In this document: in pieces, positions 13,595 to 32,362 of the stretch
Numbering within the stretch: the first letter of the stretch is position 1
How the letters are laid out: each line of letters begins with the position of its first letter
Assembly (NCBI GenBank): GCA_030917925.1
Contig: JAUPTV010000272.1
Coordinates: forward strand, 1-32,832
Direction: 5' to 3'
Length of the DNA: 32,832 nucleotides
From: Pseudomonadota bacterium
GTDB lineage: Bacteria > Pseudomonadota > Gammaproteobacteria > Competibacterales > Competibacteraceae
Notes under the pieces: model-generated
Told to the model about the DNA's origin: nothing
What the model saw: the letters and a program-made list of their open reading frames with translations, nothing else
Databases searched by the model: none
Translations under genes and position numbers: made by a program

Positions 13595-15265
13595 CTACCC
13601 CCCCTCAATCCGGTAACTGTACCCCTGCTCGGTGAGAAACAGTTGCCGATGCCGGGCGAAATCCTCCTCACAGGTGCGCAGACTGACCAGGGTATAAAAC
13701 CGCGCCCGCCGCCCATCCTGCTTGGGCCGCAACACCCGCCCTAACCGCTGCGCTTCCTCCTGCCGCGAACCATACTTGCCCGACACCTGAATCAACACAT
13801 CCGCATCCGGCAAATCCACCGCGAAATTCCCCACCCGCGACAGCACCAGCCCTGGAATGGTCCGCTCGCGGAATCCCTGATACAGCCGCTCCCGCTCACT
13901 CTGCGGCGTCTTGCCGGTCAGCAGCGGAAACCCGGTATCTGCCGCCAGTTCTTCCAACTGGCTGATGTACTCTCCAATCACCAGAATCCGATGCCCGGCT
14001 TCCCGTTCCAGCAAGTCCAGCACCACCGCCCGCTTGCGGGGATTCTCGGCGGCGACGCGAAACTGATTCCGGCGTGGGGCCAAGGCGTATTCCATATCCC
14101 GCTCGGAACCCTGGGCCACGCGAATTTCCATACAATCGGCAGCGGCGATCCAGCCCTGCCCTTCCAACTCCCGCCACGGCGCGTCATAGCGCTTCGGCCC
14201 GATCAGCGCGAAGACATCCTTCTCCAGCCCATCCTCGCGAATCAGCGTCGCGGTCAGGCCCAACCGCCGCCGTGACTGCAATTCAGCAGTAATGCGGAAC
14301 ACCGGCGCAGGCAACAAATGCACTTCGTCATAGATGATCAGCCCCCAGGACCGGGCATGGAACAGCCCGAAATGGACAAACTCCCCATCCCGACTGGGCC
14401 GCCAGGTCAACATCTGATAGGTCGCCAGGGTCACCGGCCCGGTGTCCTTGCGCTGGCTGTTGTATTGGGCAACCGCATCCGGGGGCAGATCGGTCTTGTC
14501 CAGCAGTTCCCGCCGCCATTGCTCCATCGAGGTCTGGCTGGTGGTCAGAATCAGCGTGTTCTCCTGCACCAGCGCCATGATCGCCAAACCGACTATCGTC
14601 TTACCCGCGCCGCAGGGCAGCACAATCACCCCACTGCCACCCTGCGCCCGACCTTCCCGGTAGAACGCCGCCGCCGCCGCCCGCTGATAGTCGCGGATCA
14701 GCAACGGTTCGCCACCGCATGTCAGGGCGCGCAACGTCACCGGCAATTCCTGACCGGCGTTGTAACCCGCCAGATCGTCGGCGGGATAACCGGTAGCGAC
14801 CAGCGCCTGTTTGAGCAGGCCGCGCACACCTAGCGGGACGCGAAACGCCAAGTCGCCCAGCCGTTCCCCCAGTAACGGGGAAACCTGCCGGTCGCGAGCC
14901 AGCAATTCCGCCAGCGGCGCATCGGCTACCCGCAGAAGTAGTCCGGCCTCATCGCGATCAATCACTGCCAGCCCATAACGCCGACCCAGCCCCTCGATCT
15001 CCTGCGCGACGCCCTCCGGCACCGGATACTTGGCGTACTCGCGCAAGGTCGCAATCATCCGCCCGGTGCTCAACCCGCTGGCCCGGGCGTTCCAGATGCT
15101 CAGGGGCGTAATGCGGTAGGTATGGATATGCTCGGGACTTTTGACCAGTTCCGCGAAAGACACCAAAGCATCGCGCGCGGCGTCGGCGCGCGGCGAATGC
15201 ACTTCCAGCAGGACGGTTTGATCGCTCTGCACGATCAGGGGATTTTCCGGAATGTAATCACTCAT
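13595..15265 (-). CDS. XPB/Ssl2-type superfamily 2 DNA helicase
   Basis: This 556-residue protein is a bacterial XPB-like 3'-5' helicase. The N-terminal 180 residues hold the helicase-associated domain (NPLIVQSDQTVLLEV, KSPEHIHTYRITPLS). Two RecA-like domains follow with Walker A PCGAGKT, DEVH box IIYDEVHLLP, motif III GLTATL, the XPB-specific RED motif in IREDG, and motif VI QRLGRVLRP. Its role is probably DNA opening in repair or transcription-coupled processes. The start overlaps the stop of the upstream gene by four bases (ATGA at 15262-15265), so the two are coupled and probably form a complex. No archaeal-type Bax1 nuclease is seen; the partner differs. Confidence 0.88.
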   Translation of the reverse strand: MSDYIPENPLIVQSDQTVLLEVHSPRADAARDALVSFAELVKSPEHIHTYRITPLSIWNARASGLSTGRMIATLREYAKYPVPEGVAQEIEGLGRRYGLAVIDRDEAGLLLRVADAPLAELLARDRQVSPLLGERLGDLAFRVPLGVRGLLKQALVATGYPADDLAGYNAGQELPVTLRALTCGGEPLLIRDYQRAAAAAFYREGRAQGGSGVIVLPCGAGKTIVGLAIMALVQENTLILTTSQTSMEQWRRELLDKTDLPPDAVAQYNSQRKDTGPVTLATYQMLTWRPSRDGEFVHFGLFHARSWGLIIYDEVHLLPAPVFRITAELQSRRRLGLTATLIREDGLEKDVFALIGPKRYDAPWRELEGQGWIAAADCMEIRVAQGSERDMEYALAPRRNQFRVAAENPRKRAVVLDLLEREAGHRILVIGEYISQLEELAADTGFPLLTGKTPQSERERLYQGFRERTIPGLVLSRVGNFAVDLPDADVLIQVSGKYGSRQEEAQRLGRVLRPKQDGRRARFYTLVSLRTCEEDFARHRQLFLTEQGYSYRIEGG

Positions 15266-17133
15266 TTCGGCAAACTGTAGCCTAATTTACGCAAGGCGCT
15301 GCGGAACCGGGCTTCGCATTCAGCAAAGACCGCCAGATGGCGCTCGCCGGCCAACAGGCAAAACGGTTTGGTCCGGCTGTCGTTGGCGATCAGCGTCGCG
15401 AGTACGGTATCCTCACACTGAACTAGCAAAGCCGGTCCCTGCACTTTCAGACTGCGAGCGCGGGCCGTCATATCCGCCAGAAACCGCTCCACCGTCTCCG
15501 GCAACGGCTGACCGCTCAATGACGCCAGCAATTCGCCCAGCACCGTAAGGTCGTGCCCCTCCTCCAGCGCCTCCAGCAACCGCGCCTGATCCAGCTTCCA
15601 CACCTTATCGGCAGTCTGGCTGGCGTAACTGTTCAACAGCATCACATCCGCCGGTTCCAACGGCTCACCGATGGCCGTGATTTCCAGATTCGGCAAGACG
15701 CGCACCCGCGGCGCAACAGCGACCGAAAACTCCAGGATAGCCGGTTCATAACGGTCAGCCCGCCCCAGACAATACGCCCCCAGGGCATTAACACGGATGA
15801 ACAACAAGCCGTCATAGCGGCTAATCAACGGCAGATCGCTAATGCCATACATCTCCCGGTGATCCTGCCGGGCGCCATGGGGCGGAATGTAGGCCACATC
15901 GATCAACCCCAGCGTTGCTGCATATTCAAACAGCAGACAGAGCGTATAGCGGGCCTGGAAAATCTTCCAGGGATCATGGTAATCGCCCACCGTGTAATTG
16001 GGATAATAAATCGACAGCGTGTCGGGATCGCGGGTGACTTCAAAATCGGCCCGGTTGGCTCGCATCTGCCGAAACAGATCGTCAATCCCTACCCACTGTT
16101 CCAGCGGACAACGGGTCAGCGCCTGATCAATCGCGGCGCGGCGCGGTGCCACCGAGGTCAGGCCCCGCTTACCCTTGCCGGTTTGCCCCTTGATGACATC
16201 CACCCGCCGCAATTCGTCCAGAACCGTCGTTTTGAGCCAGCGCCGCCACAGGTGCGCAATCGTATTTTCCGCCGGATCTGTCAGGGCTTTCTGCCCGGCT
16301 TTACTCAGTTGCAGCGTTTTGCCGCTCAGCGCCGTCAATCCCCCCGCCTGCACCAGCATCGGCCAGGCAAACGGCTTGATCGCTCCGATCTTCTCGTCTT
16401 CGCTATAGTCGCTATCGTCATAGAAATCCCCGCCCAGCAGCAGACCGTCCAGAGTGCGCAACATTGCCGATCCCGGCTGATGAGTCTTGTCGCTGACGAC
16501 CAATTTGCCAGCGTCAATCAGTCGCAACAGGACCTTCAAATCATGGAGCGCCTCCCGGTCAGTCCGGCGCTGGACGATGGCGGCGGTCTGCTTGACCTTC
16601 TGCCGCCGCCGGGTCGTTTCATCCTGAACAAAGCGCTCTACCGGCCACTCGCCAGGAATTTCGCGATGGCTGGGTAACTCCACCGGGGACGGCTTCGGGA
16701 CGAAAGCGCGGAAACGCCGCCGCAGGTCTTCCGGCATGACTTTTTCGTGGAAAAACAAGGACAGTAGTGAAGGGGGATCGCCAGAACCGAAGCGACTGTC
16801 CCCGCCCCAATCCGGCAACTGACCATACTTCGCCGCAAACCAATAGGCGTCGAAGTACGGAACGGGACCGTGAGCAATTTCGGCGACCGCCGCCTGCTGA
16901 AGAGGATCCAGCCTGCGCCAGAAGCCTGGCAATGGATCGTTCTCAACCTTGCCTGACTGGTCGGGAGGGCCGTTGAGGCACCTCTGAATAAAGGCGATCA
17001 AGTTGGCCTCGCGTTCGAGTTTATCGGGGACCTCGCCGGCCAGCGCCGCGAGAGTTTTCAGTCTCCCGATCCACTGCCCCCGCAACGCATCGCCGAGCGT
17101 CTTAATCGATTCGGGTTGATTGGAATACGCCAT
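15262..17133 (-). CDS. Helicase-associated domain protein, partner of XPB
   Basis: The 623-residue protein lacks Walker motifs. Its C-terminal part (about 420-600) resembles the XPB/Ssl2 N-terminal helicase-associated domain, with GLLFIRVNALGAYCLG, LEFSVAVAPRVRVLPNLEITA and a run ending in ALLVQCEDTVLATLIANDSRTKPFCLLAGERHLAVF. The N-terminal half is mainly helical with basic patches (TRRRQKVKQTAAIVQRR) and may bind DNA. It is the first gene of a two-gene minus-strand operon, with ATGA overlap to the helicase. It probably loads or regulates XPB; this is inferred from adjacency and domain content. No clear ribosome-binding site was found for the ATG at 17133. Confidence 0.72.
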   Translation of the reverse strand: MAYSNQPESIKTLGDALRGQWIGRLKTLAALAGEVPDKLEREANLIAFIQRCLNGPPDQSGKVENDPLPGFWRRLDPLQQAAVAEIAHGPVPYFDAYWFAAKYGQLPDWGGDSRFGSGDPPSLLSLFFHEKVMPEDLRRRFRAFVPKPSPVELPSHREIPGEWPVERFVQDETTRRRQKVKQTAAIVQRRTDREALHDLKVLLRLIDAGKLVVSDKTHQPGSAMLRTLDGLLLGGDFYDDSDYSEDEKIGAIKPFAWPMLVQAGGLTALSGKTLQLSKAGQKALTDPAENTIAHLWRRWLKTTVLDELRRVDVIKGQTGKGKRGLTSVAPRRAAIDQALTRCPLEQWVGIDDLFRQMRANRADFEVTRDPDTLSIYYPNYTVGDYHDPWKIFQARYTLCLLFEYAATLGLIDVAYIPPHGARQDHREMYGISDLPLISRYDGLLFIRVNALGAYCLGRADRYEPAILEFSVAVAPRVRVLPNLEITAIGEPLEPADVMLLNSYASQTADKVWKLDQARLLEALEEGHDLTVLGELLASLSGQPLPETVERFLADMTARARSLKVQGPALLVQCEDTVLATLIANDSRTKPFCLLAGERHLAVFAECEARFRSALRKLGYSLPK

Positions 17134-20907: not shown

Positions 20908-22641
20908 TTAAAACAAAAAGTACCGTTGCGCCAGCGGCAACACCGAGGCCGGTTCACAGGTCAGCAAGACCCCATCCGCCCGCACTTCATAGGTTTGTGG
21001 ATCGACGTCAATCACCGGCTGGTAATCGTTGTGGATCAAGTCGCGCTTGCCGATGGAGCGCGTTTGGCAAGTCGCCGCCAGCATCCGGCGCAAACCTAGC
21101 GCGTCCAGCGATCCACTGTTCAGCGCCGCCTTGGATACAAAGGTCAGGCAGGTCGCCGCCAACGCTCCGCCGAATGCGCCGAACATGGGCCGATAATGCA
21201 CCGGCTGCGGCGTGGGAATCGACGCATTAGCATCGCCCATCGGCGCGGCGACGATAAAGCCGCCCTTGATAATCAGCGACGGTTTGGCCCCGAAAAAGGC
21301 TGGCCGCCACAGCACAATGTCGGCCAGCTTGCCCACTTCCAGCGAACCCACCAGATGGCTGATGCCATGCGTGATCGCGGGATTGATGGTGTACTTGGCG
21401 ATATAGCGCTTGACCCGGAAGTTATCGGCGCGGTCATCGACCAGGAGGGTGGGCGTTTTGAGTACTGGGGACGGGAGGTGTCCCCGCTGGACCTTCATCT
21501 TGTGCGCGGTTTGCCAGGTGCGGGTAATCACCTCGCCCACCCGCCCCATCGCCTGGGAATCGGAGGAGATCATCGAAAACGCCCCCAAATCGTGCAGGAT
21601 GTCCTCGGCGGCAATGGTTTCCCGGCGAATACGCGAATCCGCAAAAGCCACATCTTCGGGAATGCCGGGATCGAGATGGTGGCAAACCATCAGCATATCC
21701 AGATGCTCATCCACGGTATTGACCGTGTACGGCCGGGTGGGATTGGTGGAAGACGGCAGCACGTTCGGTTCGCCGCAAGCTCGAATGATGTCCGGGGCAT
21801 GGCCACCGCCCGCGCCTTCGGTGTGGTAGGTGTGAATCGCCCGGCCTTTGAACGCCGCCAGCGTATCCTCGACAAAGCCGGACTCGTTCAGCGTGTCGGT
21901 ATGAATCGCCACCTGCACGTCATACCGTTCCGCCACCGCCAGACAGTTATCAATCGCCGCCGGGGTCGTTCCCCAATCCTCATGCAGCTTCAACCCCATC
22001 GCCCCGGCGTTCAACTGTTCCTCCAGCGCCCCCGGATGGCTGGCGTTGCCTTTGCCGAGGAAACCGAGATTGACCGGCAACCCTTCCGCCGCCTGCAACA
22101 TGCGCCGCAAATGCCACGGGCCGGGCGTACAGGTCGTCGCATTCGTGCCGGTCGCGGGTCCGGTGCCGCCGCCGAGCATCGTGGTCACGCCGGACATCAG
22201 CGCTTCCTCGACTTGTTGCGGACAGATGAAATGAATATGGCTGTCGATGCCGCCTGCCGTGGCAATCAAGCCTTCACCGGCAATCGCCTCGGTGCCGGGA
22301 CCGATAATAATGGTGACTCCTGGTTGCACATCGGGATTACCGGCTTTGCCAATCCCGCAGATACGCCCATCCCGGATGCCAATATCGGCCTTGACGATGC
22401 CCCAATGGTCCACAATCAGCGCATTGGTAATCACCGTATCCACCGCGCCGCCCGCCTGGGAGCGCTGCGACTGGCCCATGCCATCGCGGATGACTTTGCC
22501 GCCGCCAAACTTGACCTCTTCGCCATAAATGGCATGGTCGCGCTCGACTTCAATCCACAATTCGGTATCGCCCAATCGCACCCGGTCGCCGACCGTAGGG
22601 CCGTACATCTCCGCATAAGCGCGGTGGTCAATGCGGCTCAT
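20908..22641 (-). CDS. ureC: Urease subunit alpha UreC
   Basis: UreC carries the dinuclear nickel active site that hydrolyses urea to ammonia and carbamate. All ligands are visible: the His pair in GGIDSHIHF, the carbamylated Lys in GLKLHEDWG, His in [12 protein letters not shown] and [15 protein letters not shown], the flap Cys-His in MVCHHLDP, and Asp in [14 protein letters not shown]. At 577 residues it is about 10 longer than usual. The extra residues lie in the loop after QRGHLP (about 388-402, [14 protein letters not shown]) before [16 protein letters not shown]. It overlaps ureB by four bases (ATGA). Confidence 0.97.
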
Positions 22642-23286: not shown

Positions 23287-24150
23287 TCAGGTATTCCAGA
23301 AACGGGAAGGACAGGGCGGGCGGTTGAGCAGCAAGGGTCTCAGCAAACTCCACGCCAGAATAAACCAGTGGCGGGCGTGGGCCGCTGAAGGACCGAGGTA
23401 ACGCCCGATCAGCACACCATCAATGGCCGTCACCGTGACCATTTCATCGCCACCGACCGTCAGCGCGTGCCACTGTTCGCGCAGGGCGTCAACCATACCC
23501 GGCAGTACCGGCGCTCCTAATAATGTAGCGGTCACCGGTTGACCCTGCAAACCCCAGGCGGCATTGAATACCGGATCGCCGCCGATCAAGCGACTGGTTT
23601 CCAGATAGAGCGGCTCGTCATCGCGCCAGAGTTCCAGGGTTTGCCGACATTCGCCGACCGTAAACTTTTCCCCGGCCGCCGGTCGCCCCAGACAAAGAAT
23701 TTCCCAACCCAGCAAACGAGCGTCGCCCTGTAGATCAATGCGCGTCAGGGTCTGAAGACGTGCGCCGTTATAGACAATATTCTCCTGCGGCAACCATTCC
23801 AGCACCGCGCCGGGAGCCACGGTCAGGCGCTGGGTTTGAAGCGCCATCGGACCAGCGCTGCGGTAGAATTTGCCGGCGGCCGGCGTGGTCACCAAGGCAT
23901 GAGCGCCGGCGTCAAGTTGGGCGTCGAGGCGCAATTCATCGCCACCGACCACCCCGCCGGGCGGATGGAGAATAGCGACATGGCAGACCGCTTCGCCCTC
24001 GGGATAGAACGGTCGCTGCACCTGTAGCGGGCCTTGATGCGTACATTGCCTCAGAATGGTGCGCTGATCGCGACGTTGAAAGCCCAGTTGCAGCCGCGCC
24101 TGCCAACCCGTTGATGGAATCGCGTTATCGACGGTCATCGCCGCCGCCAT
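23287..24150 (-). CDS. ureD: Urease accessory protein UreD (UreH)
   Basis: UreD is the scaffold that binds apo-urease and recruits UreF and UreG for nickel activation. The product (287 residues, usual length) shows GWQARLQLGFQRRDQRT, GPLQVQRPFYPEG, HPPGGVVGGDEL, TTPAAGKFYRS and LPQENIVYNGA, all typical. The frame opens at ATG 24150; ATG 24138 is equally plausible and would overlap the ovoA stop as ATGA. In either case it begins inside the 3' end of ovoA, so its translation is coupled to that gene. Confidence 0.93.
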   Translation of the reverse strand: MAAAMTVDNAIPSTGWQARLQLGFQRRDQRTILRQCTHQGPLQVQRPFYPEGEAVCHVAILHPPGGVVGGDELRLDAQLDAGAHALVTTPAAGKFYRSAGPMALQTQRLTVAPGAVLEWLPQENIVYNGARLQTLTRIDLQGDARLLGWEILCLGRPAAGEKFTVGECRQTLELWRDDEPLYLETSRLIGGDPVFNAAWGLQGQPVTATLLGAPVLPGMVDALREQWHALTVGGDEMVTVTAIDGVLIGRYLGPSAAHARHWFILAWSLLRPLLLNRPPCPSRFWNT

Positions 24151-26555
24151 AACAGCGCATGAGTCACGATGTACTGATATTTCCGGGCATGTTCGCGGAT
24201 GACCAATGGCACGTCGGCTTCGCGCAACAACTCGAATCCCTCCGCCTGCAGGAATTCACGCAGCGCCGCCGCACTGGTGACTGGTTGACTGTCTTGTTCG
24301 TAACCGCCGAGCCAGGCTTCCGGTGGGGTAAATGTTTCCAGCCAACTGTAGGGAGAGAAAATCGCCAGCAGACCGCCCGGTTTGACCAGTCCCCGTGGGC
24401 CGCCAAGTCGCCCGAGCAGCGCTTTGGGACTGGGCAAACGACAGAGCAGATTGGCCAGCAACACCGCGTCGAGGTCCATCAGTTCGGCAGGCAGCGAACA
24501 GGCATCGGCCTGCCGGAAACTCACCCGGCTCCGGTCGATGGCGGGATCGACCGTCGCATTCCGCATAGTCCCCAATTGGCCCTCATCCTTGCGGAAATAG
24601 CGCAGCTCGCCATCCCGGCGCAGCGTATCCGCCGCATCGATGAAAGCGCGGCTCAGATCCACACCCAGCACCTCCCGGTATTCACGCGCCAGTTCAAAAC
24701 TGGCTCGACCTACCGCGCAACCCACGTCCAACGCCTTGCCGGTCGGCACCCCATAGTCGCGGGCGGCATCAAGCAGCCAATGGGCGCAACGCACCGGGAA
24801 TTCAACGGCGTCATGCGGCCCGAAGGCATAAGGCATTTGCTCCTGGGGCGAACCGTAATGCAGCAGCAGATAGTCGTTCAGAATTTGCGGATCTTCATAC
24901 ACCTGACCCGCCGAACCGGCCCCATCCAACCGCACCGCGCTGCCGTCACCGTCGCTCTGCACCAGCCGGAACCCGACATGCTGGAAAAAGTGCGGGCGGA
25001 AATGGAAGCGCGCCCATCGACTGGCTTCATCGCCGGTAGATGCCCAGGAACCGCCCAAGATCATCTGGTGCTGGCCGTCGTAACAGGGAGTGCTGAAATC
25101 GTCGTAATAGGGATGGACTTTTGCACCGGGCAGCGGGTTGAAAAGATCTTCCTGCCACTGCCAGACATTGCCGAACACATTGTAAAAGCCCGCCTCGGTC
25201 GGTTGTCCGGCAGCGACCGGCCAGGAAGAACTCCAGGCCAGATTGAGATTCGCACTGCCTTCCTGCGCCAGGGCCGCGCCGTCGTAATTCATCACGGGGT
25301 CTGATTCGACGCTGGAGGTAGTCGCTGGCGATGACCGGGCGAAACGTAGCGCCTGATGTTCGGCCTCACTGGACAGCCGGTAGGCAACTCCATCCTGTTC
25401 GGTACGCCAGGCGCAGTAGGCTTTAGCCTCGTGGTGATTGACCTCGACCGGCCAGTCCCAAGGCATGTCAATCAACTCAAACAGGGTGCGTAACCGGTAG
25501 CGGTGCAGACCGGCGGGACCGTCCGGCACCCAGAACGTCGGCGCTTTGACGTTGCGAAAGGAGCGCCACGCCCAGCCGGTTGCCGACCAATAGCGGGACT
25601 CGCGATAGCCGCCAGCCGTGACGAAGGCGTGGAATTCACCGTTGCTGACCAGATAACGGCTGGCCCGGAACACGGGGATCGTGGTTTCGCGCCGACCGTA
25701 CTCGTTATCCCAACCGTAGGAAGGCCAATCGAGCGGTTTGCCAAGAATGACGGTTTGACCGGGTACGTCAATCAGGTCATTGGCCGGAAATTCGCGACCT
25801 GCCTGGGGCGGAAAACCTGCCGTTGTCTGTTCAGCGGTTGGATGCAGGCGTGGCCATTCAGCGGGACGTTGAATCAGCGTCAGTGGCAATTCGCGGATCA
25901 GCACCGAAGAGGTTTCCAGGTGAATCCGCTCATGCTCAAAGCCCATGAACAGCGCCCACAGGGGATGATTCTGCTGGATAGGCGGATGGCCGGGCGCCAG
26001 GCCAGGATGGGTTTCGATCACCTCCCGCACCGTGCGATAGACCTGCTGGCGGTAGGCGTGGACCTCCTGGATACGCGGCCAGAGCATTTCGTTTTTGGAC
26101 AGATCATCCCAGCGCATCTCATCCACGCCGGTTTCAAACAACTGCTCGAAGTACGGATTCAGGGGCTTTTCGATCAAACCGGCCACCCGCAGCTTGTTGA
26201 TGTACAGCGCTGGGGGATGCCCGTAGTAGAAGATCATCGGATGACGCAGGTGATGGCAGGGCGGGCGAAAGAAGGCTTCCTCACCCTGAAGCCCGGAAAA
26301 CAGCACCTCGGTCAATGTCCAGGTATTGTCGAAGTAATCCAGCGTCTGCTGGCGGGTGCAGGTCGCCAGATTCGGCAACGGCAGCGAAGTCAGCGTACCG
26401 TCCGGTTGCCGTCCGGGATTATCTTGCGGCGTCTGCCCCGTCCACCACCCTACAAGGCGGGTACCCGTGAGTTCAGCATCCAGTTCGTGGCGCAGGTTGT
26501 TACGCCAGGGTTCAGTGGTGGGGTCCGGAGTCGCGTTTGCTAGTGGCAGGGTCAT
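24135..26555 (-). CDS. ovoA: OvoA: 5-histidylcysteine sulfoxide synthase with methyltransferase domain
   Basis: OvoA makes the thiol antioxidant precursor of ovothiol: it joins cysteine to histidine with O2, and its C-terminal domain methylates 5-thiohistidine. Domains of this 806-residue protein: a DinB-like iron-binding helical domain (about 50-230) with HHLRHPMIFYYGHPPALYINKLRVAGL and the FEHERIHLETS His ligands; an FGE-sulfatase-like middle (about 260-560) with SNGEFHAFV, VFGNVWQWQED and GGSWASTGDEASRWARFHFRPHFFQHVGFRLV; and a SAM methyltransferase end with ALDVGCAVGRASFELAREY. ATG 26555 is supported by AGGA six bases upstream; an in-frame ATG 57 bases earlier is less likely. The 3' end overlaps ureD. 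The lyase OvoB is not in the window. Confidence 0.93.
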   Translation of the reverse strand: MTLPLANATPDPTTEPWRNNLRHELDAELTGTRLVGWWTGQTPQDNPGRQPDGTLTSLPLPNLATCTRQQTLDYFDNTWTLTEVLFSGLQGEEAFFRPPCHHLRHPMIFYYGHPPALYINKLRVAGLIEKPLNPYFEQLFETGVDEMRWDDLSKNEMLWPRIQEVHAYRQQVYRTVREVIETHPGLAPGHPPIQQNHPLWALFMGFEHERIHLETSSVLIRELPLTLIQRPAEWPRLHPTAEQTTAGFPPQAGREFPANDLIDVPGQTVILGKPLDWPSYGWDNEYGRRETTIPVFRASRYLVSNGEFHAFVTAGGYRESRYWSATGWAWRSFRNVKAPTFWVPDGPAGLHRYRLRTLFELIDMPWDWPVEVNHHEAKAYCAWRTEQDGVAYRLSSEAEHQALRFARSSPATTSSVESDPVMNYDGAALAQEGSANLNLAWSSSWPVAAGQPTEAGFYNVFGNVWQWQEDLFNPLPGAKVHPYYDDFSTPCYDGQHQMILGGSWASTGDEASRWARFHFRPHFFQHVGFRLVQSDGDGSAVRLDGAGSAGQVYEDPQILNDYLLLHYGSPQEQMPYAFGPHDAVEFPVRCAHWLLDAARDYGVPTGKALDVGCAVGRASFELAREYREVLGVDLSRAFIDAADTLRRDGELRYFRKDEGQLGTMRNATVDPAIDRSRVSFRQADACSLPAELMDLDAVLLANLLCRLPSPKALLGRLGGPRGLVKPGGLLAIFSPYSWLETFTPPEAWLGGYEQDSQPVTSAAALREFLQAEGFELLREADVPLVIREHARKYQYIVTHALLWRRR

Positions 26556-26664
26556 ATTCGTTCCTGTTTGATTTGGCGCAGAGGGGGGTAAGCTGACGCC
26601 AAACTTAGTCAATACTTGTACAACAATAGTTCGCGCAGTTTTTGAAGGACACGGCGGTAGGGTA

Positions 26665-26710: not shown

Positions 26711-29338
26711 CTACATCGCCCGTGAAATGCGCTTACGCAGATCGGGCGGCGGATTGGCATTGAGATAGCGCCGCCCCTCCCGGGTCAAGCTCCGGCCCGC
26801 CGACGAGGTTTCAATCAGCCCCAGTCGGGTCAGATATTCCGCCGTTTCGACGAAATCCTGCTGATGAGGCAGGGCCAGCGTCTGGCGCAAGGTCGATTCC
26901 GACACTGAACCATGCTGTTGCAGATAACGCAGAAAGCGGCGCGCTACATCGTCAAGACCGTTGTAGTCAATGCCCTGGATTTCATAGAAGTCTGCGATAT
27001 TCTCAGCCGTCATCAGCGCGGCGATCTGATGCAAAGACGGGGTATCGGCTGATTGCTGCATGGCGCATTCGAAGTAATGCGGACTCAACGTCTCGCCCAG
27101 GGCGCGGACGCCACGGCGAGGATTGCACCGGGTGCGAGCGGCGATTTCATAGCAGGATTCGCGTGATAATTCCGCACCCTCCAGACATTCCTTGCCGTGC
27201 AGCCAGATGATCCCGGCCATTTCATGCAGGGTATAGGGGCGGAGTGCGGTTTTGCTGGGGCGACTTTGAAACGCTTCCGACAGCTTGCCGGGATCGGTGG
27301 TCGCCAGCAGAAATACGGCACGGTTAAAATCGTAAAGACCGCCTTCTATCGAGGTGACGCGCCGGTCGTCCAAGGCGCTTAACAGGGCAGTAGCCACCGG
27401 AGGTGAAATGCCATGCGCTTCATCAATGAAGATCAGGCACGGTTCAATTGGTGCAGTTCCCGTGGCCAGTGGCTTAGGCACCAAGCCCTCCTGAACCAAC
27501 CGTTCCAGCAAATCACCGGGGCGACGCAGACCGGAACCGCTGAAAAATAAAGGATCGCGGTTCAACAACAAGGCGCTGATTTTCCAAACCAGGGTGCTTT
27601 TGCCCACGCCAGCGGGACCGACCAGCAAGGTATCAGGGAAACGCCTCCCCAACGCTTTGCACATCTGGGCCTGCTTGACCAACTGATCGACCGCCTGATA
27701 TTGGCCGATTAGACCCAGGGCGTTCACCGGTGGCGGCCAGGTCAGATCGGCGTCGGGCGCAGGAGCCGGTGATGCGGGTTTCACCACGGGCGGAATGTGG
27801 TCTACGGCAGGGCTTGGGGACGTTGGAGGAATGGGTATGGCGACTGGTGGCGCAACCGGTTTTGGAGCGCTTTTCACCACTGGACTGGGTGAATTTACGC
27901 CAACGTCAGTCGGCGCTGACGGTTCCCAGTTCAACAGTTCATCAATCTCCGGCAACCCGAGAATGCGCTGCATAACCGGCCATTGAATCGCCGGTCTGAG
28001 TGGTTCCAGGGTTCCCACTGTTTCCCGGCGCAGTAACACGCTCACGATCAGGCCGCTGGTTTGGAGGGTCGGGGCGGGTTTCCCGGCATCCGGTGTGAAC
28101 AGTTCGACCAGCCAGCCGCCCCAGCACAACCGGTTGGCGCGATCCAGCGCCGCATCGCCGGAGTGCGTCTGCGCGGCGCGGGCCAGGGTCTGTTTCAGCA
28201 TTTCGCAACGGGGAATGGAAAGCGGCGACCGGGGCTGCAACATAGCAGCGGCCAGACCATCATCAACCGCTTCCAGAGTATTTTGCAGTTGTTCGACGGC
28301 GTGAGTCAGGTGGGTCGTTTCAATCTGATTGCTGTCCGACGCCTTGACCTCGACTGCGATTAGGTGAAAAACCGCCGCCGTTTCGTCTTTCCACAACGCC
28401 AACAAATCGCAACGATCCGCCAGGGTCCGGGTTCCGGTACGCAGCCACAGCCGCGCCAGCGGGTGATCGACTGACAACACCAGCGCCCCCGGATAGCGGC
28501 GTTGCACATCGCGGGCCGCGAACAGCAGACCGGCGAAACCGACCACCTTTTTCTGATCAGGCAACCCGTCTTGGGTTTTGATAATGTCCAGCACACCGCT
28601 ACCCAACAGCCGCGCCCCTTGATGCAGCAGGCGGCTCATGTGGTCCGGGGTCACGTTCAGATTGCACCCGGCAAATACCGGGCGGATCAGCCGGGCCAGC
28701 GGGCGAAAATCCCGCGCCGCCAGGAACGTATCGCGCATTCCCTCGCGCCGCTCCCAAATCCGCACTGATTTCATTCCGGCTTCCGACGGCAGCGCCCGGT
28801 CGGCCAGAAACAGCCAGCGGGCAGCCGGATGATCGCCTTGCAGGATTTCATCGGCGGTTTTGGCCAGCATCTCGGCGTCGGCATAGGCTTGGGGGGTGAC
28901 CGCCCGCTGGGTGCCTTCCAGCTCGTTCATCAACAGCAGAAATTCGCTGAACGGTGATTCACCCGGTTGCGGACGCAGTTCAATCCGCCCGGACAGGCGA
29001 TCCAGTTTCACCTCATAGCGAAGGCAGAACGGACTCATCGGCAAATTCCGCCCGGCATCACGCTGGCGCAGGCGGATAGTGGATTCGTCGAAAATCGCTG
29101 CAACATGGCAGGGCAGGGCCTGAATCCGGCTAACGATCTCGCTCAAATGCGGTTCGCCGGTCAGGCAGGTTTGGTCGAGATGCAAGTTCAGACGGTCGGC
29201 GGCGATTTTCTCCTGCACCGCATCTTCCTTTTGGGTGTCGCTGAAACTGAGCGCGGCCCGCAGCCGATCCGCATGTACCTTGGCGGCGAGTTTGCCGTTG
29301 GGAAAAACTTGAATTTTTGCCTTGGTATTGACTATCAT
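26711..29338 (-). CDS. PD-(D/E)XK-like nuclease region fused to RuvB-like AAA+ ATPase
   Basis: I know no named protein with this layout (875 residues). Residues 1-290 have no motif I recognise. Residues 300-360 read VLSVDHPLARLWL, then RCDLLALW and HLIAVEVKAS, and later QLQNTL: an Asp...Glu-x-Lys arrangement typical of PD-(D/E)XK nucleases. Residues about 485-550 are a Pro/Ala-rich linker. From about 555 the protein is RuvB-like: LIGQYQAV, Walker A GPAGVGKST (about 573-581), Walker B IFIDEAHGIS, LLATTDPGKLSEAFQSR, the helical lid with RCNPRRGVRALGE, and a C-terminal winged helix with TRLGLIETSSAGRSLTREGRRYL. A DNA-processing, probably defence-related ATPase-nuclease is the best guess. It stands alone and is transcribed away from the AT-rich block. 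Confidence 0.7.
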   Translation of the reverse strand: MIVNTKAKIQVFPNGKLAAKVHADRLRAALSFSDTQKEDAVQEKIAADRLNLHLDQTCLTGEPHLSEIVSRIQALPCHVAAIFDESTIRLRQRDAGRNLPMSPFCLRYEVKLDRLSGRIELRPQPGESPFSEFLLLMNELEGTQRAVTPQAYADAEMLAKTADEILQGDHPAARWLFLADRALPSEAGMKSVRIWERREGMRDTFLAARDFRPLARLIRPVFAGCNLNVTPDHMSRLLHQGARLLGSGVLDIIKTQDGLPDQKKVVGFAGLLFAARDVQRRYPGALVLSVDHPLARLWLRTGTRTLADRCDLLALWKDETAAVFHLIAVEVKASDSNQIETTHLTHAVEQLQNTLEAVDDGLAAAMLQPRSPLSIPRCEMLKQTLARAAQTHSGDAALDRANRLCWGGWLVELFTPDAGKPAPTLQTSGLIVSVLLRRETVGTLEPLRPAIQWPVMQRILGLPEIDELLNWEPSAPTDVGVNSPSPVVKSAPKPVAPPVAIPIPPTSPSPAVDHIPPVVKPASPAPAPDADLTWPPPVNALGLIGQYQAVDQLVKQAQMCKALGRRFPDTLLVGPAGVGKSTLVWKISALLLNRDPLFFSGSGLRRPGDLLERLVQEGLVPKPLATGTAPIEPCLIFIDEAHGISPPVATALLSALDDRRVTSIEGGLYDFNRAVFLLATTDPGKLSEAFQSRPSKTALRPYTLHEMAGIIWLHGKECLEGAELSRESCYEIAARTRCNPRRGVRALGETLSPHYFECAMQQSADTPSLHQIAALMTAENIADFYEIQGIDYNGLDDVARRFLRYLQQHGSVSESTLRQTLALPHQQDFVETAEYLTRLGLIETSSAGRSLTREGRRYLNANPPPDLRKRISRAM

Positions 29339-29427
29339 GGGTCGTTTGAATCAGCTTTATTAATTACACTCACAGAATCAATTGTGGGTTTTAATTACGG
29401 CTTAACAGAATTACTGGAGCATGAGTT

Positions 29428-29625
29428 ATGAATTTAACATACTATTTTAATTCGCTTTTTCCAAAGCCGCCTACCGAAGAAAGCGTAAAAAATCGTCAAA
29501 ATAAAGCCCGGCAGCTTTTAGCGGTACTTTACAGTAGGGGCAATATTAGTTTGCAAAATGGGCGTTTCATTACTTCTGATGAAATCGCTAAAAGAAGGGC
29601 CGCTATTATGCGCTATAATTTTTGA
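29428..29625 (+). CDS. Small AT-rich hypothetical protein
   Basis: A 65-residue basic protein without recognisable domain, signal or membrane segment. GGAG lies nine bases before the ATG. Its AT-rich codons differ sharply from the GC-rich neighbours, marking it as part of a transferred block. The next gene begins 18 bases after its stop behind a strong AGGAGG, so the two probably form an operon. Function unknown. Confidence 0.6.
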   Translation: MNLTYYFNSLFPKPPTEESVKNRQNKARQLLAVLYSRGNISLQNGRFITSDEIAKRRAAIMRYNF

Positions 29626-29643
29626 CAGGAGGCTAGAACACTA

Positions 29644-30240
29644 ATGAATGCAGAAGAATTAGACAAGGTTTCAGTACTTTTTAATCATGCGGAAGCTAAA
29701 TTAAAACTTATTGAGCGTCTTCATAGCCAAGAACTTGTAGTTCCTTCTGTCAATGAGTTGCGTTACGCAGGGTTTCACATTATTCAAGCGCTCTCAGCGC
29801 CATCGCCAGAGACTGAAAAAGAGAACTGGCAACGTGCCGCAAATCATTGTAAACGTGCAATCTATGATGCTTTAGAAGTCGGTGTTCTTGATCGTTTAGA
29901 GGCATTTAAACAATTTGAAATTGACTACCGCCTTGTTGAAATTCCCTTGATTATCCCAAGTTATATTGACTTGCGGACAGTTGCCAGAAAAGCTCAACAA
30001 CTGATTGCTGATTTGGAAAATATAGAAGCATATAAAGATCGAGACAGGTATTACCAAGATATTGAAAATCACTTTAATGAATTGAATGATGCAGTTGATA
30101 AAATTACGGATGCCAGACCTGAGTTGAATAAAATTTTAAATAATCGAAGAAAGCAATTTTATCTTATACTAGTGGGGATAGCTGCTACTATATTTGCTGG
30201 TTTGCTGAGTGTCATACTCCCCCTCTACTTGCTCGGCTAG
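29644..30240 (+). CDS. Hypothetical tail-anchored membrane protein
   Basis: The 198-residue protein is mostly helical and charged for its first 170 residues and ends in one hydrophobic segment, FYLILVGIAATIFAGLLSVILPLYLLG, giving a C-terminal membrane anchor with the body in the cytoplasm. No catalytic motif is visible. AGGAGG eleven bases upstream supports the ATG. It is AT-rich like the small gene before it and converges on the HNH gene, with only 12 bases between the stops. A soluble sensor with a membrane anchor is common in defence islands; the role here is not known. Confidence 0.65.
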   Translation: MNAEELDKVSVLFNHAEAKLKLIERLHSQELVVPSVNELRYAGFHIIQALSAPSPETEKENWQRAANHCKRAIYDALEVGVLDRLEAFKQFEIDYRLVEIPLIIPSYIDLRTVARKAQQLIADLENIEAYKDRDRYYQDIENHFNELNDAVDKITDARPELNKILNNRRKQFYLILVGIAATIFAGLLSVILPLYLLG

Positions 30241-30252
30241 GATTATTTTAAT

Positions 30253-31158
30253 CTACATCTTAGCCTGATTAAGTTCCCTCGCTTGTAAATGCTTATTTAA
30301 AATAAGCGGCTCAACTCGTCCATTTGAGAAAGTAAAAGATAACGTGTTGTAGTCAAAGTGAGCTTCTGCGGCATGAATGGCTCGATGCAGGTTAGGGGAT
30401 AATAACACCATGTTTTCTATTACATCATCCCCACCCCGAGAGCGATAAACAATATGATGCGCTTCTGCCGTCGGTACACCATAAAGTAACGGGCTATCAT
30501 GGCCAGTGACTTGGCACCTCCCGGAATAAATGCTATGCAAATCTTGAACTAATTGGCGATTTCGATCATAGGATTGCCGCAGTTGGTTTTTGTGCGGCTC
30601 AGTATAAGCAATAGTCGGTGATTCAAGAATAAAATCCAGTTGTGATGGCTCATTTGCATAAATTGCCTGCTCAAGTTTCTCTTCATCTGGAACGGCTTTT
30701 GCTCGTGGTTCATTTTGAAGTGATTCTGAAAACAACTCCAGCAAGTTACTTGCTAATGGCTTTAGCCCCCGAATAGTCTGGCAGGCTTGAGCAAGAGATG
30801 TACGGTCTTTATTAGCTAAACTTACACCATCAAAATCCAACAATCGAAACAACTCAAAAACATCGTCTTTTGAATCTTGAGTAACCTTAAAGTAGCGGGA
30901 AGATGTCGTATCACCCCAAACACGATAAGGCCCATATCGGTAATCCGGCGCATTGATTGTTTTAGCAACTACGTTCAATCTTGCCAGTAACCGATATTCG
31001 CTTCGTCCCGCATTAACAACCCGTGTAAATAACCAGAGACGCTCACCAACGTCAATTGCGGTATGCAATCTTGATTGATTGGAATTAAAATGAAAGCCCG
31101 CACCTTTATCAAGGTCTCGAAGATAGTTATCGTAGCGCCAATAAGCGAGCAGATCCAT
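30253..31158 (-). CDS. HNH endonuclease with N-terminal PUA/EVE-like region
   Basis: The 301-residue protein ends in an HNH nuclease domain (about 205-265): CQVTG, then AEAHHIVYRSRGGDDVIENMVLLSPNLHRAIHAA, giving the expected His-His, Asn and His ligands. The first 110 residues (LAYWRYDNYLRDLDKGAGFHFN, GERLWLFTRVV, RYGPYRVWGD, SRYF) look like a compact beta-rich domain of the PUA/EVE type that in other enzymes reads modified bases; this assignment is inference. Such an architecture would suit a modification-dependent restriction enzyme. The DNA is AT-rich. No clear ribosome-binding site is seen; an inverted repeat lies just upstream of the ATG. Confidence 0.75.
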   Translation of the reverse strand: MDLLAYWRYDNYLRDLDKGAGFHFNSNQSRLHTAIDVGERLWLFTRVVNAGRSEYRLLARLNVVAKTINAPDYRYGPYRVWGDTTSSRYFKVTQDSKDDVFELFRLLDFDGVSLANKDRTSLAQACQTIRGLKPLASNLLELFSESLQNEPRAKAVPDEEKLEQAIYANEPSQLDFILESPTIAYTEPHKNQLRQSYDRNRQLVQDLHSIYSGRCQVTGHDSPLLYGVPTAEAHHIVYRSRGGDDVIENMVLLSPNLHRAIHAAEAHFDYNTLSFTFSNGRVEPLILNKHLQARELNQAKM

Positions 31159-31162
31159 TATT

Positions 31163-31188
31163 GTTAATCAGTAGTTTAAAAGATTAAC
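31163..31188. promoter_or_regulatory. Inverted repeat upstream of the HNH gene
   Basis: GTTAATC (31163-31169) and GATTAAC (31182-31188) form a perfect 7-bp inverted repeat with a 12-base AT-rich spacer, directly before the HNH start codon at 31158 on the minus strand. It could be an operator or a hairpin ending the upstream ORF, whose stop codon lies inside it. Confidence 0.4.
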
Positions 31189-31475
31189 CCACTAAGGCGC
31201 GGACGTTCCGCGACCAGTTCAAGACCGTAGCCTTCCTCCCGAACCTGCCAGCCCAACCGCACCAAATCCACCAGCACCCGCGCTGCCGCCTCATAGGCAA
31301 TAACAGCGGTGGTTTCCGGATCCAGATGAGCGTGTGCCCAAGCTACGTCTTCAACCAACAGAGTTTGCAGATCGCCCTCGTGGTTGCGTTGGTGGGCGTT
31401 AGTCAGAGCCTTGGCCAAGGCATGGAACCGGTCAATGGCTATGCCTTGTAACGGTGGTTCAATGGGAACAATCAT
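31176..31475 (-). CDS. Hypothetical protein, probably truncated at its C-terminus
   Basis: The 99-residue product (MIVPIEPPLQGIAIDRFHALAKAL...) is helical and acidic, with GDLQTLLVEDVAWAHAHLDPETTAVIAYEAAARVLVDLVRLGW, and I recognise no domain. The coding is GC-rich and ends abruptly in LSGLIF exactly where the AT-rich block begins, so it may be the N-terminal piece of a longer protein cut by that insertion. Other in-frame ATGs lie at 31535 (behind AAAGG) and 31610; I chose 31475 because the coding-like sequence starts there. Confidence 0.45.
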   Translation of the reverse strand: MIVPIEPPLQGIAIDRFHALAKALTNAHQRNHEGDLQTLLVEDVAWAHAHLDPETTAVIAYEAAARVLVDLVRLGWQVREEGYGLELVAERPRLSGLIF

Positions 31476-31654
31476 AGTGGTCGGTAAAAGTAGTTGGACT
31501 TTGGTTAGACGGATTAAGCATGAGGTAACTAACATAGTGCCTTTATATAGCTTGTGGAACGCCGAAATACTACGATCCTGTAAATTTTCCGTTTCTTTCC
31601 AAGTCTCCATTTGTAGTTGTCATCAGCATCCTCGCAAGACTCCGCACCATTAGC

Positions 31655-31678
31655 TATACTTGTTGAACTCTTCAACAA
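31655..31678 (+). promoter_or_regulatory. Toxin-antitoxin promoter with palindromic operator
   Basis: TATACT (31655-31660) is a good -10 box. It overlaps a perfect palindrome TTGTTGAA-CTC-TTCAACAA (31660-31678) that would cover the start of transcription. It ends 16 bases before the antitoxin ATG. Such an operator is what a ribbon-helix-helix antitoxin would need to repress its own operon. No convincing -35 box is seen. Confidence 0.7.
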
Positions 31679-31694
31679 ATCAGGAGTACCTCAC

Positions 31695-31928
31695 ATGGCT
31701 ACCGTCAACTTCAGCGTCCCCGAAGACGTCAAGCACGCCTTCAATGAAGCCTTCCAGGGCAAGAACAAGAGCGCGATTATTGCCGATCTGATGCGCGAGG
31801 CGGTGGAACGCGCCCAGCGTCAGCAACTGCAAAGCGAAGCCATTGATCGGATTTTGGCGTTACGCGCCCAAACCGAACCCGTGACTGCTGAAGCACTCCG
31901 TGCTGCCCGTGAGGAAGGTCGGCCATGA
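31695..31928 (+). CDS. Ribbon-helix-helix antitoxin
   Basis: The 77-residue protein starts with a beta strand and two helices of the ribbon-helix-helix type (MATVNFSVPEDVKHAFNEAF, then KSAIIADLMREAVERA), which dimerises and binds DNA. The C-terminal RAQTEPVTAEALRAAREEGR tail should wrap the toxin. AGGAG lies eight bases before the ATG. It overlaps the PIN toxin gene by four bases (ATGA), and the upstream palindrome is its likely binding site. Confidence 0.88.
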   Translation: MATVNFSVPEDVKHAFNEAFQGKNKSAIIADLMREAVERAQRQQLQSEAIDRILALRAQTEPVTAEALRAAREEGRP

Positions 31929-32362
31929 TTCGCTATGTCATTGACGCCAGCGTTGCTATCAAATGGTTCGTTCCTGAAAACCCTGAAGAACCGGATGTTC
32001 CCCAAGCACTGGCTCTGCTGGATGCCTTGAAGAATGGGGATATCGCCCTCTACCAACCTGCCCACTGGGAGGCGGAAATCGCTGGCGTCCTGGCGCGCAT
32101 TAGCCCGGCGAACGCTATCAAAAAAATGGTCGCGCTCCGGGCGCTGGCGTTCACCCGTGTCAACGACACCACGGTTTACGCGACGGCCTGTAACCTCGCC
32201 ATCCGCCTGAATCACCACTTGTTTGACACGCTCTACCACGCCGTCGCCCTGCATACGACAGAGACCACCTTGATTACCGCTGACTACCGGTACTTCGACA
32301 AAGCCCAATCCATCGGCCAGATTATCCGGTTGTGTGATCTGCATCTGCACCGCCCCACTTGA
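31925..32362 (+). CDS. PIN-domain toxin (VapC-like ribonuclease)
   Basis: This 145-residue protein is a PIN-domain RNase of VapC type. The acidic catalytic residues are visible: Asp7 in YVIDASVAIKWF, Glu in AHWEAEIAGVLAR, Asp in HHLFDTLYHAVAL and Asp in LITADYRYF. It should cut RNA, commonly tRNA, when free of its antitoxin. Its start overlaps the antitoxin stop, as is usual for such pairs. Confidence 0.9.
   Translation: MIRYVIDASVAIKWFVPENPEEPDVPQALALLDALKNGDIALYQPAHWEAEIAGVLARISPANAIKKMVALRALAFTRVNDTTVYATACNLAIRLNHHLFDTLYHAVALHTTETTLITADYRYFDKAQSIGQIIRLCDLHLHRPT

Follow-up and report, generated by a model that had tools for sequence, protein, structure and literature searches.

Restriction by the SspABCD-SspFGH system is phosphorothioate-based, and the carboxy-terminus of SspH is FtsK-like, as published (PMC8092258). 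In DndFGH, nicking is coupled to translocation (excerpts of PMC11662687), and DndH carries a restriction endonuclease together with a HerA or FtsK motor, such motors having been captured repeatedly, from six clades (excerpts of PMC10853773). Motor exchange among HerA and FtsK clades has already been published for DndH. The systems in these two sources resemble the family described here in several respects: in DndFGH/DptFGH, the H protein has an exchangeable motor behind its nuclease domain, DUF4338 (DruA) is reported to be fused to some DndF proteins, and the module is reported to occur without modification genes. They differ in that the reported DndH motors are HerA or FtsK, with RuvB unmentioned in PMC10853773. 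In its main text, a YprA-helicase preprint on Druantia mentions neither RuvB, FtsK nor SspF (PMC12458937), and no report of a RuvB motor in an SspH- or DndH-type protein was found in the open-access literature.

The DNA analysed, called the window, is a stretch of 32,832 nucleotides from a Competibacteraceae genome. Its minus strand contains, at positions 26,711–29,338, a single reading frame of 875 amino acids running from ATG to stop. We interpret this frame, with a probability of about 80%, as the 3′ remnant of H, the last gene of a three-gene DruA-F/G/H restriction operon related to SspFGH and DndFGH. An earlier, sequence-only reading had described the frame, its strand unstated; the frame is real, but the gene is a fragment. 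That reading had also suggested an undescribed system. The window copy is no complete system, being a truncated remnant. Sequence comparisons place the family among restriction modules of the SspFGH/DndFGH kind, as a motor variant in which a predicted RuvB-type motor takes the place of FtsK. It is not filed as SspH or DndH because its motor is RuvB-like, not HerA or FtsK.

Domains of the 875-residue frame

The H remnant is made up of an SspH/DndH-like amino-terminal part with a nuclease motif, a linker and a RuvB-like motor, all on the minus strand; homology to its relatives spans approximately positions 26,711–29,276. The nuclease-motif core (residues 267–385, positions 28,184–28,540) contains the motifs SxD291, R296xWL, R309xD311, E330-V-K332, Q350 and R377xE379, of which D311 (28,406–28,408) is the putative PD-(D/E)XK aspartate and E330-V331-K332 (28,343–28,351) the putative catalytic ExK. 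Five lineages were aligned over this core, namely the window, genome G433, one haloarchaeon and two Hymenobacter proteins, with pairwise identities of 20–28% save for two close pairs (64% and 50%). Residues D291, D311, E330, K332 and Q350 are invariant in this alignment, in which 20 of the 163 ungapped columns are invariant; by our own arithmetic, which assumes random placement, the chance that three named columns are all invariant is about 0.002. The D...ExK signature previously noticed at about residues 311–330 is thus present in the frame and conserved in all five lineages.

Structure prediction of this region was less informative. The AlphaFold2 model of residues 22–480, built with five close sequences, has a mean pLDDT of 39 and is not used as support; its secondary structure elements are ordered as in an alpha-beta-beta-beta-alpha core, but at that low pLDDT. 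Foldseek returned no match at E 0.001 for the model of the nuclease part, a PDB profile search with the amino-terminal part yielded nothing at E 10, and Pfam found no nuclease family in the five cores at E 10. The structural checks for the PD-(D/E)XK fold that had been proposed along with the signature were consequently negative or uninformative. From the conserved motifs, we infer that the core is probably a nuclease of the PD-(D/E)XK type, in fold as well as in activity.

The linker (about residues 476–533, positions 27,740–27,913) is rich in proline and alanine, as the sequence-only reading had stated, these two residues making up 45% of the stretch 476–541, and it evolves fast. It is followed by the RuvB-like motor (residues 534–875, positions 26,714–27,739). 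Named after the anatomy of RuvB, its motifs are a Walker A motif (residues 574–582), a Walker B motif (634–642), sensor-1 (675–682), an arginine-finger region (687–696), sensor-2 (737–745) and a winged helix (793–859). The NCBIfam RuvB model matches residues 543–862 with 71.7 bits against a cut-off of 282, a second score being 52.4 bits against a cut-off of 299, and Pfam RuvB_C matches residues 793–859 with a score slightly below its cut-off. In the PDB profile search, RuvB chains come out on top for the motor part, with an E-value of 2e-13 over the whole length. The AlphaFold model of residues 528–875 has a pLDDT of 53 and is counted merely as agreement with the sequence match; RuvB structures are its top Foldseek matches (E 1.4e-8), with low TM-scores. 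The proposed RuvB-style AAA+ motor with lid and winged helix is therefore supported over the whole carboxy-terminus by sequence, with the structural check in agreement, and a nuclease motif and a RuvB-like motor do occur within one chain.

Like the RuvB Holliday-junction motor, the window motor has Walker and sensor motifs, and its AAA+ core is followed by a lid and then a winged helix. It differs in having approximately 25–31% identity to it, a shorter hairpin and a fusion to the part with the nuclease motif. In RuvB, the hairpin contacts RuvA. No profile fits the carboxy-terminus better than RuvB, as would be expected if the frame encoded a RuvB-family repair protein with a housekeeping role and an extended amino-terminus. 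The probability that the frame encodes such a protein is nevertheless negligible and we rejected this candidate: the genome has its own RuvB, a 348-residue frame on another contig (C111), to which the motor is 26% identical and compared with which its hairpin is 7 residues shorter; the NCBIfam score is far below the cut-off; the spread is sporadic (two of 369 genomes in a class sample and three of 398 in a phylum sample, the own genome counted); and the complete copy belongs to a DruA-F/G/H operon, a context like that of SspFGH and DndFGH and not a housekeeping one.

The complete-looking operon and its FtsK-bearing counterparts

One complete RuvB-type operon was found, in genome G433. This operon of 9.8 kb is open and complete-looking, and encodes a DruA-F fusion (about 1241 residues from its methionine), an SspG-like G protein and an H protein of about 1581 residues with a RuvB motor. 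The F and G genes overlap by 26 bp and the ATG of H is located 2 bp after the stop codon of G. Searched with PADLOC, the F protein matches DruA (1.9e-110), SspF (4e-12) and DndF (1e-3), while G matches SspG weakly (6.5e-05) and additionally has one BLAST match of 115 residues to an archaeal G protein (4e-14). The H protein matches no PADLOC family at E 0.01, which its RuvB motor would explain; PADLOC likewise gives no SspH for the H protein of genome G009. The G433 protein is 67% identical to the window frame in the motor and 65% in the amino-terminal part, which suggests that both were inherited jointly.

When SspFGH, as described in the parts of PMC8092258 used here, is compared with the G433 operon, the order F-G-H is the same, F and G match the PADLOC families SspF and SspG (the latter weakly), and H is in both a single large protein with a carboxy-terminal DNA motor. 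The differences are that the SspFGH motor is FtsK/SpoIIIE-like, whereas here it is RuvB-like, and that here DruA is fused to F. Druantia type I has the DruA (DUF4338) part in common with the G433 operon, which differs from it in its F-G-H layout and in that none of its three genes matches DruB, DruC or DruE at E 0.01.

Two haloarchaeal plasmid regions (L027 and L028) contain DruA, F, G and H, and so agree with the family in all four modules and in their order. The G433 modules match those of L028 with E-values of 1e-68 (DruA), 4e-45 (F), 4e-14 (G) and 9e-31 (H), and PADLOC identifies SspF (2e-15), SspG (2.5e-12) and SspH (1.6e-67) in L028. The amino-terminal part of H is 22% identical between these loci and the window family over about 790 residues. 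The haloarchaeal loci differ from the latter in that DruA is separate from F, in that a divergent DEAD/DEAH helicase gene is located nearby, and in the motor: the carboxy-terminus of the L028 H protein consists of FtsK_alpha and FtsK_SpoIIIE. Matches of the SspH profile to the archaeal H protein fall mostly within this FtsK part, so that the designation SspH-like for the amino-terminal part is drawn from synteny and from the bridge that the archaeal protein provides. Two Hymenobacter plasmids also carry DruA/F genes, together with genes for H-like proteins whose motors are of the FtsK type. In Hymenobacter sp. HDW8, a separate FtsK coding sequence follows H; as the tail of H looks frameshifted, we do not claim a natural split between H and FtsK there. 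By sequence similarity, the amino-terminal part of H is joined to a predicted FtsK motor in archaea and Bacteroidota, and to a predicted RuvB motor in the relatives of the window. Related nuclease and partner genes would thus have been subjected to a natural swap experiment, with FtsK in haloarchaea and Hymenobacter and RuvB in the phylum of the window.

The operon anatomy, the homology of the modules, the conservation of the catalytic motifs and the purifying selection are established, and a mechanism can be proposed to go with them. An intact H protein (around 1580 residues) would be composed of an amino-terminal part common to haloarchaeal SspH-like proteins, the nuclease core, a flexible linker and the RuvB-like motor. 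F, a P-loop NTPase, and G would recognise invading DNA, the DNA-reading role of G being borrowed from DndG. The RuvB-like motor would form an AAA+ ring, probably a hexamer, around duplex DNA and move this DNA, and during translocation the nuclease core would nick or cut unprotected DNA, an activity proposed by analogy with DndFGH. The presumed outcome is restriction of phages, with a putative role for DruA. A search for dndC (TIGR03183) alone, with weak controls (matches in 4 and 5 of 14, none above the cut-off), found it in none of eight and none of two carrier genomes, and this absence fits a form without phosphorothioation. A tentative extension, possible but doubtful, is a phosphorothioate-independent system in which a RuvB-type ring replaces the FtsK-type translocase, so that DNA that is branched or being replicated drives the nuclease and may also be where it is directed. 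The targets would in that case be phage forks and recombination intermediates, rather than simple linear tracks. If the complete operon works, the motor of SspH/DndH-type proteins would be exchangeable for a RuvB-type AAA+ ring, beyond the HerA and FtsK clades.

Remnants of the operon in the window

The long H proteins of relatives align with the window frame from about residue 18–22. Six long matches in other genomes begin at residue 18, in open frames of up to 1593 residues, a full H protein having about 1580–1590. At the DNA level, homology to relatives starts at position 29,276, which corresponds to position 2207 of L016. After a lone base (29,277) follows a scrap of H of 25 bp (29,278–29,302, minus strand), an exact match to L016 positions 1713–1737. 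From the distance between these two points in L016, 469 bp are missing from the window copy, an internal deletion that, together with the one intervening base, keeps the reading frame. Nothing homologous to H was detected beyond 29,302 on the upstream side, and the first 609 residues of the H protein of a relative have no match in the window's own genome at E 0.001.

Where the middle of the operon should be, there is AT-rich DNA (29,303–31,185, 1883 bp) with a GC content of 39.6%, versus 60% for the H remnant. It contains the gene for an HNH endonuclease (30,253–31,158, minus strand) and a plus-strand reading frame (29,644–30,240). A tblastn search of the window (E 0.001) detected no G. Directly beyond the AT-rich DNA lies the start of a DruA-F gene (31,186–31,475, minus strand), comprising about the first 97 codons from the ATG, which belong to the DruA portion, and falling inside a reading frame at 31,176–31,610. 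Its DNA is 87.2% identical to contig C66 of G009, where the matching DruA-SspF fusion gene is a frame of 1244 residues. The start of F and the end of H are on one strand and in operon order, so the window holds both ends of one operon; the HNH gene, located between these ends, is an insert or replacement within a dead operon. We therefore rejected the HNH endonuclease as a partner of the system; the sequence-only reading had named it among the neighbours that suggest a defence island. The defence context suggested by that reading is supported by the DruA-F/G/H operon of G433. With its ends surviving, its middle replaced and a deletion of 469 bp in H, the operon in the window is dead or nearly so, and the window captures the overwriting of one defence operon by a segment with another nuclease gene.

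A point against a relic is that the frame is open across the deletion, as nothing would oblige a dead gene to stay open. The truncated protein could still be made and act, alone or with the HNH endonuclease, as a shortened nuclease-motor effector. The frame is open over 2.6 kb, the deletion plus one base preserves it, the catalytic motifs are intact, and dN/dS between the window and its relatives is about 0.1, the same as among the other copies, although recent decay would also leave this ratio low. We consider such an effector unlikely: about 700 amino-terminal residues are absent, the window has no G and lacks nearly all of F, promoter-like sites between 29,200 and 31,700 are at chance level (4 found, 4.6 expected), and the segment around the HNH gene differs in GC content. 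It is less likely still, indeed highly improbable, that the arrangement is a chimera of metagenome or draft assembly in which an intact H gene was joined to unrelated DNA. In favour of a chimera, the assembly comprises 299 contigs, one of them being the window in its entirety, with the junctions 1.3–3.6 kb from its end; in addition, contigs of four relatives terminate in the 5′ part of H or close to it, one of these ends being a repeat common to three G009 contigs. However, the two remnants share their strand and stand in operon order, the internal deletion and the replaced middle would need several independent errors, and truncated or interrupted copies are found away from contig ends in two relatives (truncated in G032, split in G035). 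Decay of one operon remains our preferred explanation.

Two further observations were made next to the remnants. A small reading frame (31,617–31,928, plus strand) is followed by a PIN protein gene (31,925–32,362, plus strand; Pfam PIN 5.5e-07), likely a toxin-antitoxin pair; the two are oriented away from the F remnant and lie beyond the footprint of the operon. A word of 17–19 bases is common to the window at 26,615 (minus strand), downstream of the H remnant, and to L040 at 118 (plus strand), downstream of the G009 F gene; it is possibly a dispersed repeat.

Relatives, selection and other features of the window

With residues 1–519 as query, matches were found in 8 genomes, the own one among them, out of 190 related ones; the three matching genomes of the phylum sample are the own genome, G406 and G433, and in the order of G433 two of 48 genomes match. 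None of the other seven copies in the family is whole in the data, which draft assembly, the state of the carrier genomes, may explain in part. H begins at about residue 568 in G032, with type II restriction-modification genes upstream, is split into two frames in G035, contains an internal stop in G023 and runs into contig ends in G020, G023 and G029. The start of the G009 copy lies in a repeat (about 126 bp) that two other contigs also contain, and G038 has just a short piece of 46 residues, with stops. In G406, H does not extend past the linker, and whatever in this genome matches the motor does so weakly (33–34% identity, best E 9e-12), so that the motor seems to have been lost, as far as sequence matches indicate. 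Among the eight family carriers, the archaeal F query found F in one, G009, on a different contig whose end is 178 bp past F, and the archaeal SspG query, a weak one, found G in none. In G032 (L018/L025, 175–3274), a MamI-like type II restriction enzyme and a methyltransferase take the place of the absent upstream part of H, possibly a second defence operon overwritten by another nuclease system. One sequence, L017 (JAAUTD010000327.1), is titled as cyanobacterial; contig C406 of G035, in the family of the window, has an equal size (4410 bp) and the same match, and the title looks wrong.

In 15 pairwise comparisons, dN/dS is 0.063–0.151 for the nuclease part, 0.059–0.127 for the motor and 0.22–0.55 for the linker, six pairs with G433 having been left out because dS is saturated in both catalytic parts. 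The nuclease and motor parts were thus under purifying selection. The nearest copy to that of the window is G009 in the upstream part (dS 0.30) but G035 in the motor (dS 0.42), which shows that recombination took place near the linker. A viral origin was considered and rejected: two scans of viral contigs revealed no relative, and 14 phage records with a match have it to the motor part alone.

Elsewhere in the window, a bacterial XPB repair helicase is encoded at 13,595–15,265 (minus strand; NCBIfam 820 bits), which also matches PADLOC PbeA models (best 9e-17), beside a reading frame of 623 residues (15,262–17,133, minus strand) with a marginal Helicase_C_3 match. A match of 111 bits to Rfam 5_ureB_sRNA (22,203–22,492, plus strand) is antisense to a urease alpha gene and may reflect conserved urease coding sequence, not an RNA. 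Directly downstream of the H remnant, at 24,135–26,612 on the minus strand, lies the gene for OvoA, a two-part 5-histidylcysteine sulfoxide synthase/methyltransferase.
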